Under the pieces are notes generated by a model. It did no database searches and was not told where the DNA came from. It saw only the letters and a program-made list of their open reading frames with translations. From Enorma phocaeensis (GTDB lineage: Bacteria; Actinomycetota; Coriobacteriia; Coriobacteriales; Coriobacteriaceae), in assembly GCF_016901575.1 (NCBI RefSeq), contig NZ_JACJKQ010000014.1, forward strand, positions 1 to 54,848: a stretch of DNA of 54,848 nucleotides. The letters run 5' to 3'. A program made the position numbers and the translations under genes. Shown here one piece after another: positions 6,776 to 35,199 of this stretch; the first letter of the stretch is position 1; the number at the start of each line of letters is the position of its first letter.

Positions 6776-7723
6776 CTACACAAGCCCCGCCATGGCGCGG
6801 GCGTTGCGGCCGACCTTGCGGATGTCGTAAGGGGTCGTCTGGTACACGTAATAGTTGAGCCAATTGGTATAGAGCAGCTGCGCCTGGCTGCACCACGTGT
6901 TGAGCGGCTCCCTTGTGGGGTCGTCATCGGGAAAGTAGTTCACCGGGATATCCGGGTCGATGCCGCGCGCCAGGTCGCGCTCATACTCGAGCTTGAGCGT
7001 ATCGGCATCGTACTCGGGGTGTCCAAATACGAAGAACTGTCTGCTGTCGACGCTCTTCACAATGTAGAGCCCCGCAACCTTTGACGTCGCCAGGATCTCG
7101 AGGTCGGGGTGAGAGGCGACGTCCTCCTCGCGCACCTCGGTGTAGCGCGAGTGCACGGCGAAGAAGCGATCGTCGAAGCCGCGCACGAGCGGCGACTGGC
7201 GCTTGACCAGCTGGTGCTCGTAGACACCGGAGAGCTTCGCGGGCAGCTCATGCTTCTGGATGCCGTAGTGGTGGAAGAGCCCCGCCTGCGCACCCCAACA
7301 AATATGCAGCGTCGAGTGGACGTTGGTCGTCGACCAATCCATGATGCGCTCGAGCTCGGGCCAATAGTCGACGTCGGTAAAGTCCAGCTGCTCAACAGGC
7401 GCGCCCGTGATGATGAGGCCGTCGAAGTGCTCGTGCTCGACCTCCCTGAACGTCCGGTAGAAGGTCTCGAGGTGCTGGGCCGAGACGTTCTTCGAGTCGT
7501 GGCTCTGGGTGCGGAGCAGCTCCACCTCGATCTGCAACGGCGTGTTGGAAAGCTTGCGCATGATCTGCGTCTCGGTGGCGATCTTGGTAGGCATGAGGTT
7601 CAAGATGAGTACGCGCAGCGGACGAATGTCCTGATGGATGGCGCGATACTCGGTCATGACAAAGATGTTTTCGCCCTCGAGCGCCTGGGTGGCGGGCAGG
7701 GCGTCGGGAATGCGGATGGGCAT
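6776..7723 (-). CDS. metA: Homoserine O-acyltransferase, probably acetyl-CoA specific
   Basis: A 315-residue MetA-family enzyme that acylates homoserine in the first committed step of methionine synthesis. The catalytic Cys142 sits in CWGAQAG, and His235 and Glu237 in GHPEYD, matching the known Cys-His-Glu triad positions exactly. Residue 111 is Glu (GAPVEQLDF). In this family Glu111 has been linked to acetyl-CoA use and Gly111 to succinyl-CoA use, so the product is predicted to be O-acetylhomoserine despite the usual succinyltransferase name. The ATG at 7723 has AGAGGAG eight bases upstream. No other methionine gene is adjacent, and no SAM riboswitch fold was recognised in the 227-bp upstream gap. 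Confidence 0.95.
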
Positions 7724-7950
7724 GGCGGCGCTCCTCTATGTGCTTGAAACAGCGCATCGCAGGTCACAAGCGGTGCGCGCTCTATCTTTTCACGCACAAA
7801 GACGCTCGTCAAGCGGCGGCGGGAGCAACCTTCCTCGCGCTGCCCCCGCCGGTACGTCCTCGTATTCAAATCTCTGCCGGCATGCGGCGCCCCCGGGCGT
7901 GGGCGCCGTCGCGGGCCCACTTCTCGGCAGGCGCTCACGCGGCCGCGGGC

Positions 7951-9063
7951 CTATTCCCCAGCGACCGCGACGCCCGCCGCCTGGGCGAGCTCGGCCTCTT
8001 CGGGATAGTAGACGCCCCAGTCGTAGCGAAGGCGCGTCATGGTGTCCATGACGTCGGCGGCATAGTCGATCAGCTTGAGCTTCGACTCGTCCCCCGCAAC
8101 GGCGGCTTCGAGGTCGGCCATCTCGTAGGCAAGCGCGTAGGCCTCCTCGCCCTCCTCGACGATCTCGCGATGCCCGTCAGAGGTCCAAACGATCTCGGCG
8201 CGGTCGGCGCGCGGGTAGTCGTTGATCTCGAGATAGCAGTTGTCGAAGCTGATCATGGCGCGCTTGGGCTGCTTGGAGTGAAGTGAGAGCGAGAAGACGC
8301 CCAGCTGGCCCTCGGCATTGCGCGTCACAAATCCGCTCGTCTCGTCCACGCCGGTCGCAGCGCGGTTGGCAAGCGAGACCACCTCGTCGGGGTGGCTTGC
8401 CATAAAGAGTCGGGCCGCGCTGAGCGCATACACGCCGATGTCCAGCATGGCGCCGCCGGCGAGCCTGGGATTATAGAAGCGATTGGTCAGGTCGCCATAC
8501 TCCTTGTAGCTGCCAAAGTTGACCTGCGCCAAGTTCATCGCGCCAAACTCTCCGGTCGAGACGCGCTTGAGCAGCTTGGTATAGAGCGGCATGTGCAAGA
8601 TGGTCGTGGCGTCCATGAGGACCACGCCGTGCTCGGCGGCGATGGCACGCGCCTCGGCGAGCTCGGCGCTGTTCAGCGTGATGGCCTTTTCGCACAGCAC
8701 GTGCTTGCCGGCGGCAAGCGCCTCGCGCAGGAACGCGATATGGGTGTTGTGCGGCGTGGTGATGTACACGGCGTCGATGTCGGGGCTGGCATAGAGCTCC
8801 TCGAAGCTGTCGAACACGCGCTCGACGCCATAGCGCTCGGCAAACTCCACCGCCTTGCCCTTCGTGCGGTTTGCGACGCCCGCCAGCTTCCGCCCGGCGA
8901 GTGCCATGGTCTGAGCCATCTGGTTGGCGATGGCGCCGCAGCCGATCACGGCCCAGCGCAGATGCGGAGCGACGAATATGTCGCTGGGGAACGGCTTGCC
9001 CTGGACCGCCTTGAATGCGGCATCGGCAGCCTGGGCGGCATCGAGCGGAGTGGATGTGGACAT
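7951..9063 (-). CDS. Gfo/Idh/MocA family oxidoreductase
   Basis: A 370-residue NAD(P)-dependent oxidoreductase. The N-terminal Rossmann motif is VIGCGAIANQMAQTM, the EKAITLN segment holds the conserved EKP-like Lys, and the C-terminal domain carries GGAMLDIGVYAL, typical of the Gfo/Idh/MocA family (sugar, inositol or dihydrodiol dehydrogenases). The substrate cannot be assigned. The ATG at 9063 is preferred to the one 24 bases upstream because AGGAGG lies eight bases before it. A TATAAT box is at 9138-9143. The promoter region continues into the six-copy 26-nt repeat array, so expression may be controlled by whatever binds there. Confidence 0.9.
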   Translation of the reverse strand: MSTSTPLDAAQAADAAFKAVQGKPFPSDIFVAPHLRWAVIGCGAIANQMAQTMALAGRKLAGVANRTKGKAVEFAERYGVERVFDSFEELYASPDIDAVYITTPHNTHIAFLREALAAGKHVLCEKAITLNSAELAEARAIAAEHGVVLMDATTILHMPLYTKLLKRVSTGEFGAMNLAQVNFGSYKEYGDLTNRFYNPRLAGGAMLDIGVYALSAARLFMASHPDEVVSLANRAATGVDETSGFVTRNAEGQLGVFSLSLHSKQPKRAMISFDNCYLEINDYPRADRAEIVWTSDGHREIVEEGEEAYALAYEMADLEAAVAGDESKLKLIDYAADVMDTMTRLRYDWGVYYPEEAELAQAAGVAVAGE

Positions 9064-29885: not shown

Positions 29886-30551
29886 TCACCTGCCAAAGAA
29901 CACATACACGCAGACGCACAGCGCCACCATGAGCACGAGCGCCACCGACCCGATGAGGCGACATGCCTCCCAGTTGGGCAGAACCACCCGATACAGCACG
30001 TCGTCAGGCAGCCTCGTCCCCTCGTGCCGACCTTCTAGATACGCTGCCACCTCAACCGCATCGTGAAGCCTTTGGTCGTCGAGAAAGCGCCGGATCTTTC
30101 GCTGCTGGGACGCCCGGGCGAAGCAGAGCCCCAGCTGGAGGCAGTTGAGGCAGACGCCCCACAGCGCCAGCCCGTCATAGAGAGACCTGTCGACCGACGC
30201 GTCGAGCCCTATCCGCCACACCTGTATGACAATCAAGGCAAGCGTCACCACGAAGAAGGCCCCATACCAAAACACCGAGCCAGCCAGGAGCTTCGCGAGG
30301 GTATGGCGGTCGTCGGCGGTGGAAGTCAGCAGCTCCTGGGCGTCGTCGCCCATGAGCGCGTCAACCGAGGTCTCGAGACGCCGAGACAGCATCTTGAGGC
30401 TCTCGACGTCAGGCAAGGTCCTTCCGCACTCCCAGTTGTTAACCGTCTGGCGAGAGACATATATCTCCTGCGCCAGCGCCGCCTGAGACAATCCCGCGGC
30501 CTCGCGCGCGATGCGAATATTGGCGCCGATCTCTTCTGCCAGCGTGCCCAT
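29886..30551 (-). CDS. XRE family regulator with membrane domain
   Basis: A 221-residue protein with an N-terminal Cro/C1-type helix-turn-helix (residues 5-60: LSQAALAQEIYVSRQTVNNWE, with the typical RTLPDVESLKMLS after it) and two hydrophobic regions, at about 85-150 and near the C-terminus (VALVLMVALCVCVYVFF). It would be a membrane-tethered DNA-binding protein; the signal is unknown. The ATG at 30551 has GGAGGT four bases upstream; an ATG at 30563 is the alternative. It has no obvious partner gene. Confidence 0.82.
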   Translation of the reverse strand: MGTLAEEIGANIRIAREAAGLSQAALAQEIYVSRQTVNNWECGRTLPDVESLKMLSRRLETSVDALMGDDAQELLTSTADDRHTLAKLLAGSVFWYGAFFVVTLALIVIQVWRIGLDASVDRSLYDGLALWGVCLNCLQLGLCFARASQQRKIRRFLDDQRLHDAVEVAAYLEGRHEGTRLPDDVLYRVVLPNWEACRLIGSVALVLMVALCVCVYVFFGR

Positions 30552-30745
30552 ACCGACCTCCATTGCCGCCCCTGCCCGACGTTGCGTCTCCCCTATCGTA
30601 TGCCCTTCAGACATCACGCCCAATCGAGTGGGGCGAATATCGCCGTGAAGCGGGTGTCTAAGTCCTTTGACACCACCCGATACCTGCACGTTTATGGGTT
30701 CATATAGCGTGGCATATGCTCCCGCGGGCACCGCCGGACGCGAAA

Positions 30746-30877: not shown

Positions 30878-31057
30878 CTACTCGGAAGCCGGGGCCTCGG
30901 CATCGGCGACGGCAGCCGCCTCGGCAGCCTCGGCAGCGGCCTTCTTCTCAAGCCAGTCGGCGCGACGGTCGCGACGCGACACGATGCCCAGCACCACCGC
31001 AGGAATAAACGCTACGACGACGAGCGCCATAAGCGGGGCGAACACATAGACAAACAT
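30878..31057 (-). CDS. Small single-helix protein at the rnfB position
   Basis: A 59-residue protein starting MFVYVFAPLMALVVVAFIP, one transmembrane helix, then a basic SRRDRRADWLEKK stretch and an Ala/Glu-rich tail ending PASE. It starts 12 bases after the rnfA stop codon and is followed by the operon terminator. Its layout, a membrane helix followed by SRR, resembles the N-terminal anchor of RnfB, but the whole iron-sulphur region of RnfB is absent and there are no cysteines at all. It may be a membrane subunit or assembly factor that replaced RnfB, or a remnant. It is preserved as an intact frame with a start codon, SD-like GGGGGA upstream and normal codon use, so it is probably translated. 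Confidence 0.7.
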   Translation of the reverse strand: MFVYVFAPLMALVVVAFIPAVVLGIVSRRDRRADWLEKKAAAEAAEAAAVADAEAPASE

Positions 31058-31069
31058 CGTCAGTCCCCC

Positions 31070-31666
31070 TTACACAAACAGCCCGCCGGCGATGCCGGCG
31101 ACGCCCGTGAAAGCAAGCGCCACCAGCGAGGCGGTGACAAGCGTGATGGGCAGGCCACGCAGAACGCCGGGCACTAGGCGCTCGTCGATGCGATCGCGCA
31201 GGAAGGCGAAGGCGACGATGGCGATAAACGCACCCATGCCGGCGCCGAAGGAGCTGCCAAGCGCGACATCGAACGTCGAGGTGGCGGCCACGGCGGCATT
31301 GCCCATGGGAACAGCGAGCAGCGCGGCGTTCAGCGCGACCACGGAAGCCATCATGTAGATCCGGTCGCGCACCGAGCGCTCCTTGCCCGTGGCCATGACG
31401 GCGCCGATCACATAGGACACGGCAACGCCGACCACAAGGTAGGCCATCGGGGCAAGGTAGGAGATGCCCCACGGCTCAAAGAGCGTCGTGTAGAGCGGCC
31501 AGCCGATAAGGCCGGACAGGAAGGCCGCGGCCCACACCATGCCGCCGAAGCAGAAGGAGTCCTGCGGACGCTCGGCGACCAGGATTACCGAAACCATGCC
31601 GACCAGCTGCACAAACACGAGGTTCTGGTCAAACGCGGCCGTGAACAGGGCGTTCAAAAGTTCCAT
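31070..31666 (-). CDS. rnfA: RnfA-like membrane subunit lacking cluster cysteines
   Basis: A 198-residue membrane protein with six helices that aligns with RnfA/NqrE over its whole length; for example, NLVFVQLVGMVSVILVA aligns with the first helix and RGLPITLVTASLVALAFTG with the last. In known Rnf and NQR complexes RnfA and RnfE form a pseudo-symmetric pair holding a [2Fe-2S] cluster in the membrane through two Cys each. Here the positions are Val25 and Ala114 (VALNAALLAV), both non-ligating. The ATG overlaps the rnfE stop codon (TAATG). Alignment is by eye, but the flanking Asn and Gly residues make the register clear. Confidence 0.85.
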   Translation of the reverse strand: MELLNALFTAAFDQNLVFVQLVGMVSVILVAERPQDSFCFGGMVWAAAFLSGLIGWPLYTTLFEPWGISYLAPMAYLVVGVAVSYVIGAVMATGKERSVRDRIYMMASVVALNAALLAVPMGNAAVAATSTFDVALGSSFGAGMGAFIAIVAFAFLRDRIDERLVPGVLRGLPITLVTASLVALAFTGVAGIAGGLFV

Positions 31667-32313
31667 TACTGCTCACCCCCCTGAGACGCAGCGCTCTTCT
31701 TGGCGGCGTCCACGATGGAATTGATGAATGCCGCAACGAGCGCCAGCACCAACAGCGAGCCGGCGGGCGTGCCGAAGATGGCGATCGGCGAGGAGGCGAG
31801 CTCGGTCATGGTGAGACCAAAGATCTCGCCGGTGGAGAACATGCCGTTTACCAAGCCGACAAAAGCAAGCGTGGCCACGGTGCACACGGCGCCAAACACC
31901 GCCGTGCCGAGCGACGAGCCCGAGGTCGGCGCGGCAGCGTAGTCCTCGTCCGTCGCGAACGCCATGGCGAGTGCGTTGACCGCGGCGATAGAAACATACA
32001 TGCCGACGTTCTCGTTGATCAGCGGATCGTACACGCGGAGCGCGAAGCCGCAGATGGCAACCACGGCGGCGCTCACCATGAGCATCACGGGGATGCGCGA
32101 GAACTTGCCCGTGACGGCGCGCAGCGGACGCGCGAGGATCGCCATGGCAAGGATCGACACGGCGCTCACCGCGCCGATCGCGGCGCCGTTCTCGAGCGAC
32201 GTCGCAACATACAGGCCCGGCAGCGAGCCCGCCACGACCACGAACGCCGGCGAGTGCACGAGCTCGCGCAGACGGGCGTTCTGGTCCTGAATCACAGAAT
32301 CATGAAGAGCCAT
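31666..32313 (-). CDS. rnfE: RnfE-like membrane subunit lacking cluster cysteines
   Basis: A 215-residue membrane protein with six helices, homologous to RnfE/NqrD. It would pair with RnfA in the membrane. The usual cluster Cys in GLCP reads GSLPG here (Leu31 at the Cys position), and the VTNC motif reads AVNAL (Ala114), so both of its expected [2Fe-2S] ligands are gone. The remaining Cys residues are elsewhere. The ATG at 32313 is one base after the rnfG stop, with GGGAGGT upstream, so translation is coupled. C-terminal residues are Lys/Ser-rich. It is shorter than E. coli RsxE, with a reduced loop before the last helix. Confidence 0.83.
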   Translation of the reverse strand: MALHDSVIQDQNARLRELVHSPAFVVVAGSLPGLYVATSLENGAAIGAVSAVSILAMAILARPLRAVTGKFSRIPVMLMVSAAVVAICGFALRVYDPLINENVGMYVSIAAVNALAMAFATDEDYAAAPTSGSSLGTAVFGAVCTVATLAFVGLVNGMFSTGEIFGLTMTELASSPIAIFGTPAGSLLVLALVAAFINSIVDAAKKSAASQGGEQ

Positions 32314-32314
32314 C

Positions 32315-32938
32315 TTAGTTACCTCCCAGCGCGGCATAAGCCTCGAAGGCGATGTTGAGGTCGGCCACGACGGCGTTCGAGGTGAACGTGGCGCCGGAGA
32401 CGCCGTCCACCTGGGTCTCGCCAGACGCGGGATCCTCCATGGTGAGGGTGCCCGTCGCGGCAAGCCCCGTAAAGGTGCCGAAGAAGTCCTCGGTCAGGGC
32501 GTTGGTGCCAATGCCGTCGGTCTCGTCCTCGGCCACGACCTGAATGCCGGCCACGGTGCCGTCGGAGGCGATGCCCACCATGAGCTCGACGTCGCCGTGG
32601 TAGCCGGTGGCCGAGACATCAAAGACGTAGTCGCCGGCGTCGGTCTGGTACACCGAGTTGAGGCCCTCGATCGACGGTGCGGTGACCTGGGTGAACGAGC
32701 CCGCATCGGGGAACAGCAGCGCACGCTGCGCGCCGCCCTTGGCCTCGTCCAAGCGCAGGTCGGCGTCGGCGAAGGCGGTGGAGCCCCACTCGCCGGCGTA
32801 GTAGACGCCCGCCGTCACGCCGCCGCACACGGCGGCAGCGACCAAGATGACGACGAAGGTGTACAGCGAGCCATTGCGATGGCGCTTGATCCAAGAAGGC
32901 TTCTTGGGAGCAGCGGAAGTCTCGTTAGACGAGGGCAT
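32315..32938 (-). CDS. rnfG: RnfG, flavin-binding electron transport subunit
   Basis: A 207-residue protein with one N-terminal membrane helix (residues 26-48) and an extracytoplasmic FMN-binding domain. The flavin motif SGATFTS is at 181-187, with Thr184 as the expected covalent FMN attachment site through phosphoester linkage. In Rnf complexes RnfG receives electrons on the outer side and passes them to RnfD. The ATG at 32938 overlaps the rnfD end by 14 bases and has GGGAGG at good spacing. The attachment motif is intact, so a flavinylating enzyme (ApbE) must exist elsewhere; none is in this window. Confidence 0.92.
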   Translation of the reverse strand: MPSSNETSAAPKKPSWIKRHRNGSLYTFVVILVAAAVCGGVTAGVYYAGEWGSTAFADADLRLDEAKGGAQRALLFPDAGSFTQVTAPSIEGLNSVYQTDAGDYVFDVSATGYHGDVELMVGIASDGTVAGIQVVAEDETDGIGTNALTEDFFGTFTGLAATGTLTMEDPASGETQVDGVSGATFTSNAVVADLNIAFEAYAALGGN

Positions 32939-33857
32939 TCTTGACACCTCCCACAGGCTGGGACCGCGTGTAGCGGTCGATGATCGGAACGAACATGTTC
33001 ATGAACAGGATGGAGAACGCCACGCCCTCGGGGGCGGAGGCGAACAGGCGCACGAGCGCCGTGATGAGGCCGCAGCCAACACCGAAGATGATCTTGCCCT
33101 TGGGCGTCATGGGCGTGGTGGTGTAGTCGGTGGCCATGAAGAAGGCGCCGAGCGCCAGGCCGCCGGACAGCAGCTCGAACATGACGTCCTGGCCGGCAAG
33201 GCCCGTGACCACGGCGACGGTGGCAATGAAGGGCAGCGTGGCCCAGGCGTCGACCACCTTGACCGCCAGCAGGAAGATGTAACCGATGAGCAGGGTCAAA
33301 ACGCAGGTCTCGCCCAGGGCGCCGGCGTGGTTGCCCAGGAAGAGGTCGAGATAGCTGTAGGGCATGGAGCCCTGCGCGGCCATGGCGAGCGGGGTGGCGC
33401 CGGTGACGGCGTCGAGCGACTTGCCCACCACGTCCGGATAGGACGAGAGTGCCGACGGCAGCGCAACCATAATAAAGACGCGGCCGGCGACGGCGGGGTT
33501 GGCGATGTTGCAGCCAATGCCGCCGAAGAGCATCTTCACGATGACGATGGAGAACGCCGTGCCCAGCATGGCCACCCAGAACGGGCAGTTGGCCGGCAGG
33601 GTGAAGGCCAGCAGCATGGCGGTGACCACGCAGGACAGGTCGCCCGCGGTGGACTCACGCTTCATGGCGATGCAGCACAGGTGCTCGCACACGAGCGCCG
33701 TGGCAATGCACACAAGCACCAGCAGCGGCGCGCCAAGGCCATACAGCACGGTCGCGGCAATGAGCGTGGGCACCAAGGCCAGGCACACGGCACCCATCAC
33801 CTTGAACGTGGTGCTGTTGCCGTGGAAATGAGGGGAGGCCTCGTTGATAAGGTTCAT
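32925..33857 (-). CDS. rnfD: RnfD, membrane flavoprotein subunit
   Basis: A 310-residue integral membrane protein with about ten helices, homologous to RnfD/NqrB, the ion-translocating flavin subunit. The FMN attachment motif is DAVTGATPLAM, with Thr155 as the covalent site. Conserved segments FGGIGCNIANPAVAGRVF and TDYTTTPMTPKGK are present. The ATG at 33857 has AAGGAGG nine bases upstream and lies four bases after the rnfC stop codon. The upstream in-frame extension is Arg/Pro-rich and spurious. All known core residues appear intact, unlike in RnfA and RnfE. Confidence 0.94.
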   Translation of the reverse strand: MNLINEASPHFHGNSTTFKVMGAVCLALVPTLIAATVLYGLGAPLLVLVCIATALVCEHLCCIAMKRESTAGDLSCVVTAMLLAFTLPANCPFWVAMLGTAFSIVIVKMLFGGIGCNIANPAVAGRVFIMVALPSALSSYPDVVGKSLDAVTGATPLAMAAQGSMPYSYLDLFLGNHAGALGETCVLTLLIGYIFLLAVKVVDAWATLPFIATVAVVTGLAGQDVMFELLSGGLALGAFFMATDYTTTPMTPKGKIIFGVGCGLITALVRLFASAPEGVAFSILFMNMFVPIIDRYTRSQPVGGVKNALV

Positions 33858-33861
33858 GTCG

Positions 33862-35199
33862 TTACGCCTCCTTCGCGGGTTGGGTACGGCGGGCGACGTC
33901 GCTGCGATAGAAGGCCTTGCCCTCGCGGATCGAGGCGGTGATGCGGCGATGCGCCGGGCAGGCGTAGGCGCACGAGCCACACTCCATGCAGTTCATGACC
34001 GCGAACTCATCCAGCTTCACCACGTCGTGGCTGCGGGACGCCGCGTCGAGCTGGAAAGGCATGAGGCCCAGCGGGCAGGCGCGCACGCAGCGGCCACAGC
34101 GGATGCAGGGCGTCTCGTCCGGCAGGATGGCGGCACTGTCCAGGCACAGGATGGCGTTGTTCGCCTTCAGGATGGGGCAGTCGATGTCGGTGATGGTGCG
34201 ACCCATCATGGGGCCGCCCATGATGATCTTGCGCGGCTCCTTCACGAGGCCGCCCGTGGTCTCCACCACGTCGTGCACGCTCATGCCGATGGGAATACGG
34301 TAGTTGCCGGGATTCTTCACGCAGTCGCCGGCGATGGTGACGGTCTTGCGCACCAGCGGCACGCCGTAGCGGAAGTACTCCTCGATACGCGACACCGTGG
34401 TCACGTTGAGCACGAGGCAGCCGGCGTCCACGGGCAGGCCGCCCGCGGGAACCGCGCGGCCCGTCGTGGCCTCGATGAGCACCTTCTCACCGCCGGCGGG
34501 GTACTTCGTGGGAATCGACAGGACCTCGACGAGGTCGGAGACGCCCTTCTCCTCAGCCGCCTTGCGCAGGGCCTCGATGGCCTCGGGCTTGTTGTCCTCG
34601 ACGCCGATGACGGCCGCCGGGATCTCCAGCGCGCGAGCGATGCGGGCTACGCCGTCAACGACGCGCTCGGAGTGCTCGATCATCTGGCGGTAGTCGCTCG
34701 TAATGAACGGCTCGCACTCCATGCCGTTCACCACGACGAACTCGAACTTCTTCCCCGGAGGGCACTTCATCTTGAACCACGACGGGAACGAGGCGCCGCC
34801 CAGGCCCACCACGCCGGAGGCGCGGACGCAGGCAATGAACTCGTCCTTTGTCTCGTACGTGGGCTTCGTGATGCTCGGATCCTGCTCCATCTTGCCGTCC
34901 GAGGCGATCTCCACCACCGGGGCCGTCTGGCCCGTGGGGAGCGTCTGGGTGGCGACGGAGGTCACCGTGCCCGAGATGCTTGCGTGCGTGGGCGCGCACA
35001 GGCCCTCGCCGTCGCCGATGAGCGTGCCGACGTACACGTGGTCGCCCACGTTGACCACCGGCTTGCCCGGAGCTCCGATATGCATGTTCAGCGGGATGCG
35101 AACCTGCTTGGGGGGCTCGATCGACGTGACAGGGCACTCACGCGTGTCCTTGCACTGAGGCGGATGTACACCGCCCAACGTCTTGTGCAGAGAGAACAT
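33862..35199 (-). CDS. rnfC: RnfC, NADH-binding iron-sulphur subunit
   Basis: A 445-residue peripheral cytoplasmic subunit that exchanges electrons with NADH through FMN. The N-terminal barrel-sandwich begins at HPPQCKD; the flavin/nucleotide site includes GVVGLGGASFPSWFK near residue 130 and NGMECEPFITSDYR. Two 4Fe-4S motifs follow: Cys365, 368, 371, 375 in CIRCGRCVRACP and Cys404, 407, 410, 414 in CMECGSCAYACP. This confirms an Rnf rather than an Na-NQR complex, which would have NqrA and NqrF. Gene order C-D-G-E-A is as in clostridial operons. The ATG at 35199 follows AAGGGGA. A leader hairpin and a palindrome lie upstream. Confidence 0.95.
   Translation of the reverse strand: MFSLHKTLGGVHPPQCKDTRECPVTSIEPPKQVRIPLNMHIGAPGKPVVNVGDHVYVGTLIGDGEGLCAPTHASISGTVTSVATQTLPTGQTAPVVEIASDGKMEQDPSITKPTYETKDEFIACVRASGVVGLGGASFPSWFKMKCPPGKKFEFVVVNGMECEPFITSDYRQMIEHSERVVDGVARIARALEIPAAVIGVEDNKPEAIEALRKAAEEKGVSDLVEVLSIPTKYPAGGEKVLIEATTGRAVPAGGLPVDAGCLVLNVTTVSRIEEYFRYGVPLVRKTVTIAGDCVKNPGNYRIPIGMSVHDVVETTGGLVKEPRKIIMGGPMMGRTITDIDCPILKANNAILCLDSAAILPDETPCIRCGRCVRACPLGLMPFQLDAASRSHDVVKLDEFAVMNCMECGSCAYACPAHRRITASIREGKAFYRSDVARRTQPAKEA

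Follow-up and report, generated by a model that had tools for sequence, protein, structure and literature searches.

The window analysed here, a stretch of 54,848 nucleotides (nt) from Enorma phocaeensis (contig NZ_JACJKQ010000014.1), carries on its - strand a compact operon for an Rnf complex that has neither RnfB nor the cysteines that hold the intramembrane [2Fe-2S] cluster in RnfA and RnfE. Our best explanation, to which we give somewhat better than an even chance, is that it encodes a conserved Rnf derivative without half of its circuit, in which electrons from reduced nicotinamide adenine dinucleotide (NADH) would pass to the extracytoplasmic flavin mononucleotide (FMN) of RnfG and from there to an outside acceptor, with RnfA, RnfE and a small protein, RnfX, serving as scaffold. 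The complex is common to many Collinsella gut bacteria, in which it would probably export NADH electrons rather than pump ions.

Operon layout and the missing return limb

The genes are arranged in the order rnfC-rnfD-rnfG-rnfE-rnfA and are followed, after 12 nt, by an open reading frame (ORF) of 59 amino acids (aa), here called rnfX:

33862..35199, - strand: rnfC, 445 aa; NADH/FMN (Nuo51-like) domain, SLBB domain and two CxxCxxCxxxCP [4Fe-4S] motifs; Pfam, NCBIfam and PDB matches
32925..33857, - strand: rnfD, 310 aa; ten-helix subunit with FMN Thr155 and riboflavin residues Asn120 and Asp244; PF03116 the sole match
32315..32938, - strand: rnfG, 207 aa; one transmembrane helix and an extracytoplasmic FMN_bind domain with FMN Thr184 (SGATFT)
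31666..32313, - strand: rnfE, 215 aa; membrane subunit of the Rnf-Nqr type that lacks the cluster cysteines, from PF02508, PDB alignment, 30-genome alignment and model
31070..31666, - strand: rnfA, 198 aa; membrane subunit of the Rnf-Nqr type that lacks the cluster cysteines, from the same four sources
30878..31057, - strand: rnfX, 59 aa; single transmembrane helix and short acidic Ala-rich tail, in the rnfB slot; no Fe-S motif

RnfC, RnfD and RnfG were clear members of their families, and RnfE and RnfA gave weak but significant PF02508 matches (Pfam, NCBIfam). These assignments and coordinates bear out the first-pass annotation, made from the letters of the window, which had read the operon as rnfC-D-G-E-A with a 59-residue single-helix protein in the place of rnfB. 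It had also placed four non-cysteine residues by eye at the cluster positions, and alignment against Rnf and NQR chains of solved structure put the same ones there with no local gaps: Val25 (31592-31594) and Ala114 (31325-31327) in RnfA, and Leu31 (32221-32223) and Ala114 (31972-31974) in RnfE.

The RnfA/E alignment comprised 30 members of the window's family, the Coriobacteriaceae, and 11 canonical operons (eight other coriobacterial families, three Bacteroidota). None of the four cluster cysteines was present in any of the 30 Coriobacteriaceae operons, whereas all four were found in 11/11 canonical ones. No alternative conserved set of cysteines near the lost ligands was detected in the 30-member alignment, and replacement ligands were rejected, the partial cysteines at RnfA 107 and near RnfE 144 not being universal. 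The RnfA 107 column, seven residues ahead of Ala114, holds a cysteine in 23 of the 30 relatives, which is missing from the window protein. Structure predictions, made of single chains, returned the expected fold both for RnfA (against NqrE, 8a1t_E: Z 17.0, root-mean-square deviation 3.5, 188 residues aligned; against 9eri_A: Z 16.7, deviation 3.0, 188 aligned) and for RnfE (against NqrD/RnfE, 8a1t_D: Z 14.3, deviation 4.6, 176 aligned), and on these models both are therefore real RnfA/E homologues, not misnamed proteins.

The Fe-S domain of RnfB (PF04060) was absent from the whole E. phocaeensis genome, a draft of 108 contigs with 99.76% completeness whose closest named relative found was Collinsella sp. 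An2, while control genomes with Rnf tested positive; a second RnfA/E (PF02508) pair was likewise missing genome-wide. A second Rnf set, or an RnfB encoded elsewhere in this genome, was thus rejected by genome-wide search. Neither an rnfB accompanied by a cysteine-bearing RnfA/E pair nor neighbouring cysteine ligands in a corrected alignment turned up, the two outcomes on which the first-pass annotation had said that it would fall.

A scan of the class Coriobacteriia, which like our other comparisons included draft genomes, found PF02508 in 116 of 398 genomes. Within the window's family all 28 such genomes gave weak matches and PF04060 was found in 0/28, whereas outside the family it was present in 87 of 88, with the one exception (G320) breaking off at a contig end. 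A separate count of family carriers, the family-wide search for the operon, recovered it from 30/67 Coriobacteriaceae genomes. Beyond the family, 19/19 sampled RnfA matches from other Actinomycetota kept both cysteines, and the four Bacteroidota matches from the collection scan were canonical. The loss of RnfB and the loss of the RnfA/E cysteines coincide across the class, which supports the earlier reading that the two went together. In both the RnfC+RnfD and the RnfE+RnfA trees the 30 family members came out as a single clade (support 0.89 and 0.87, respectively). In the RnfC/D tree this clade lay within the Coriobacteriales next to canonical Rnf, and its stem was longer for RnfE/A (1.09) than for RnfC/D (0.42). 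This pattern fits one loss followed by inheritance, so the genome counts are not to be taken as independent events. No description of an Rnf without both RnfB and the cluster cysteines, or of Rnf in Collinsella, was found in the open-access literature.

The retained RnfC-RnfD-RnfG arm

The other half of the complex was kept in full as judged by its cofactor residues, and the two 4Fe-4S motifs of RnfC, Thr155 of RnfD and Thr184 of RnfG were all as first claimed. The eight RnfC cysteines (365/368/371/375 and 404/407/410/414) were invariant in 30/30 family members, as were the FMN threonine of RnfG and, in RnfD, the FMN threonine together with Asn120 and Asp244, which correspond to N123 and D249 of Acetobacterium woodii (PMC11889175). 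The NAD(H)-RnfC-RnfD-RnfG arm thus appears intact throughout, in agreement with the NADH linkage suggested earlier. Three further RnfC cysteines outside the motifs (Cys261, Cys293 and Cys341) are also invariant in 30/30 and mostly missing from canonical RnfC.

Covalent attachment of FMN needs ApbE, and ApbE was present in all 30 operon-bearing genomes, against 7/37 family genomes without the operon. Two ApbE genes were found in the E. phocaeensis genome, one of them lipoprotein-like and adjoining a gene for a PF07456 membrane protein (L158, G000:C78, about 6794-8477, - strand), a pair that is a candidate flavin supply for RnfD and RnfG; PF07456 genes also adjoin ApbE in L162 and L164.

Ratios of nonsynonymous to synonymous substitution rates (dN/dS, NG86) ranged from 0 to 0.37 for every operon gene over 14 pairs, pointing to purifying selection on all of them, with none decaying freely, and the earlier suggestion of a coherent change as opposed to random decay was upheld accordingly. 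The order of conservation is reversed: pairwise identity in the family was 0.78-0.79 for RnfC/D and 0.59-0.60 for RnfA/E, so that RnfC/D are the most constrained and RnfA/E the least, whereas in canonical coriobacteria the greatest conservation is that of RnfA/E (0.52-0.57, against 0.47-0.50 for RnfC/D).

Proposed outward electron export and known relatives of the complex

In the proposed mechanism, cytosolic NADH would reduce the FMN of RnfC, from which electrons would pass through its two [4Fe-4S] clusters to the riboflavin and onward to RnfD's covalent FMN, on a path across the membrane, and arrive at the covalent FMN of RnfG on the outside. Without RnfB and the membrane [2Fe-2S] cluster there would be no return inside, and the electrons would be handed to an extracytoplasmic acceptor, for which soluble flavins, quinones and Fe(III) are candidates, while RnfA, RnfE and RnfX would stay as scaffold for RnfG and RnfD. 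The cofactor sites as far as RnfG, the loss of the return limb and the conserved arrangement can be read in the sequences themselves; because NAD(H)-RnfC-RnfD-RnfG is the sole remaining cofactor chain we infer one-way export, as we do the acceptor, the lack of ion pumping and the role of RnfX. Of the possibilities raised in the first-pass annotation, an outward electron exporter fits best. Outward electron flow by itself conserves no energy, and its benefit would therefore be redox disposal.

When the cluster cysteines of RnfA/E were mutated in A. woodii, ferredoxin:NAD+ activity and autotrophic growth were abolished (PMC11889175). Since removal of the cluster has this effect, the window complex cannot be an ordinary Rnf; it carries the natural equivalent of that mutation, with the loss of RnfB in addition. 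It shares with the Rnf of A. woodii (9eri), Clostridium tetanomorphum (7zc6) and Azotobacter vinelandii (8ahx) the order C-D-G-E-A, the RnfC, RnfD and RnfG cofactor sites and the RnfA/E fold, and differs from them in having no RnfB and no RnfA/E [2Fe-2S] cysteines, altered ion-path residues and a new small sixth ORF. Judged by sequence it is Rnf by descent, with the NADH/FMN domain and two [4Fe-4S] motifs of RnfC, the FMN threonines of RnfD and RnfG and the riboflavin site, yet it lacks two features that define Rnf, the PF04060 RnfB and the intramembrane cluster.

Na+-NQR, which has RnfD/G/A/E-type subunits in common with the window complex, also descends from Rnf and is proposed to have emerged once rnfB had been lost (PMC4014512). 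However, NQR regained an input module (NqrF) and retained the cluster but not the cofactors of RnfC (NqrA), whereas the window complex kept the opposite half, with RnfC intact and the cluster lost. The NqrF-type NAD module (PF00175) was not found in the E. phocaeensis genome, by which NqrF-like electron input was rejected; together with the invariant Fe-S cysteines of RnfC, this indicates that the complex is not an NQR.

For two-subunit Nqr/Rnf-like flavinylated complexes, one-way electron export through one limb has been proposed (Meheust 2021, PMC8238504; PMC11334425). Shared with them is a limb that leads from NAD(P)H by way of an RnfD-like subunit to an FMN domain of RnfG type, as are a predicted RnfG/NqrC-like extracytosolic FMN subunit and ApbE in the genome. 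In those complexes, however, the RnfD-like domain is fused to PF00175 and has no FMN threonine, and RnfC, RnfA and RnfE are missing, whereas in the window complex RnfC is the NADH module, RnfD has its threonine and no PF00175 fusion, and RnfA, RnfE and RnfX are kept. The window complex would thus work like the two-subunit exporters while being built differently.

Several points weigh against outward export. The direction of electron flow is not fixed by the sequences, and purifying selection on RnfA and RnfE seems more than a pure exporter would need, since the two-subunit complexes manage without them. The search for an acceptor gave none: RnfG was the only FMN_bind match in the E. phocaeensis genome, from which a second FMN_bind protein was absent, and MenA was missing from it as well. 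A flavinylated partner reductase was accordingly rejected as acceptor, and so was menaquinone as a general acceptor, MenA occurring in only 9/30 operon-bearing genomes (0/37 others in the family); neither a flavinylated partner nor menaquinone made by the cell itself is thus general. FAD_binding_2 counts gave no pointer to a partner. The distribution of MenA suggests a possible link between menaquinone synthesis and the complex in some lineages.

In the Rnf complexes tested, neither RnfB nor the RnfA/E cluster is dispensable, and current models of Na+ pumping centre on the cluster. A bacterial family that has lost both, with selection maintaining what remains, separates the two electron limbs naturally; it also forms a counterpart to the way in which NQR is proposed to have arisen, with rnfB likewise lost and the opposite half kept. 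The system makes it possible to test RnfC-D-G as an NADH-linked exporter and the role of RnfA/E without redox. For annotation, an Rnf gene set found in Collinsella should not be taken to imply ferredoxin:NAD+ coupling or an ATP yield.

RnfX and alternative explanations

A single-helix ORF of 43-70 aa lies 3' of rnfA in 30/30 operons, within about 14 nt in nearly all of them. These ORFs occupy the rnfB slot and have a short N-terminus, an acidic tail and no Fe-S motif; RnfX had no Pfam or NCBIfam match. Position, topology and length make a remnant of the RnfB anchor an attractive but conjectural identity: the profile comparison of the RnfX helix with the N-terminal anchor of RnfB was non-significant (probability 2.7%), no better than with the unrelated RnfG helix (2.4%). 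As the RnfB helix touches the RnfG helix in A. woodii (PMC11889175), RnfX may stand in its place beside RnfG.

The first alternative is a cluster-free redox ion pump, in which inward/outward switching of RnfA/E, powered by the docking of RnfG and by redox changes of its FMN, would carry a cation or a small solute across, and RnfX would be a new subunit. If true, NADH oxidation through RnfC-D-G would drive transport without a membrane Fe-S cluster in gut Actinomycetota. The retention of RnfA/E under purifying selection in all 30 operons, the RnfA/NqrE fold predicted for the window RnfA, the acid at the RnfE E115 position (23/30) and the arginine at R67 (21/30) are in its favour. However, the RnfA E88 position was acidic in 0/30, the Thr110-Thr111 pair adjoining the cluster was replaced in 30/30 and RnfE R67 in 9/30, RnfA/E now evolve fastest of all the subunits, and in A. 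woodii the binding and release of Na+ are coupled to the redox cycle of the very cluster that is missing (PMC11889175). We hold this alternative unlikely, and of the 'NADH-linked, flavin-only Rnf-like pump' of the first-pass annotation the NADH link is the part supported: the two [4Fe-4S] motifs kept in RnfC make 'flavin-only' inexact, and the altered RnfA and RnfE residues, with the Na+ coupling of the missing cluster, disfavour the pump.

The half-circuit might instead run inward, from an external donor through RnfG, RnfD and RnfC to NAD+, adding to the membrane potential. The retained chain is redox-complete and is the route by which electrons travel from RnfG to NAD+ when ordinary Rnf works forwards, but inward flow would call for a donor whose potential is no higher than that of NAD+/NADH, no external donor system was found, and RnfG has no FMN_bind companion in its genome, which makes inward flow rather improbable. 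We give still less credence to a hidden partner encoded elsewhere, unlike RnfB or NqrF, that would dock on RnfA/E or RnfX and keep a bidirectional path. The conserved RnfX could serve as its docking site and the draft state of the genome leaves room for it; against this, no known cofactor would join the cytosol to the RnfG FMN on that side without the RnfA/E cluster, neither PF04060 nor PF00175 occurs in the genome, and PF04060 is missing from the whole family.

A protein with an XRE-type helix-turn-helix and a C-terminal membrane region is encoded just downstream of the operon (29886-30731, - strand) and is a possible regulator; eight further loci have a protein like it close to their rnf operon. 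This neighbourhood would suit a role in redox sensing or maturation, comparable to that of E. coli Rsx on SoxR, with the complex acting as an NADH-poised membrane flavin and not carrying bulk current. Most operon copies have no such neighbour, however, and Rsx itself requires RsxB and the cluster, so that we regard this role as very improbable. A relic under decay, which the lack of the operon in 37/67 family genomes might suggest, is scarcely credible given the low dN/dS of all genes and pairs and the layout, reading frames and cofactor residues kept in 30/30. One of the family members without the operon has five clustered FMN_bind matches (L170, G166:C46:58000-72000), possibly a multi-flavinylated electron-transfer system.

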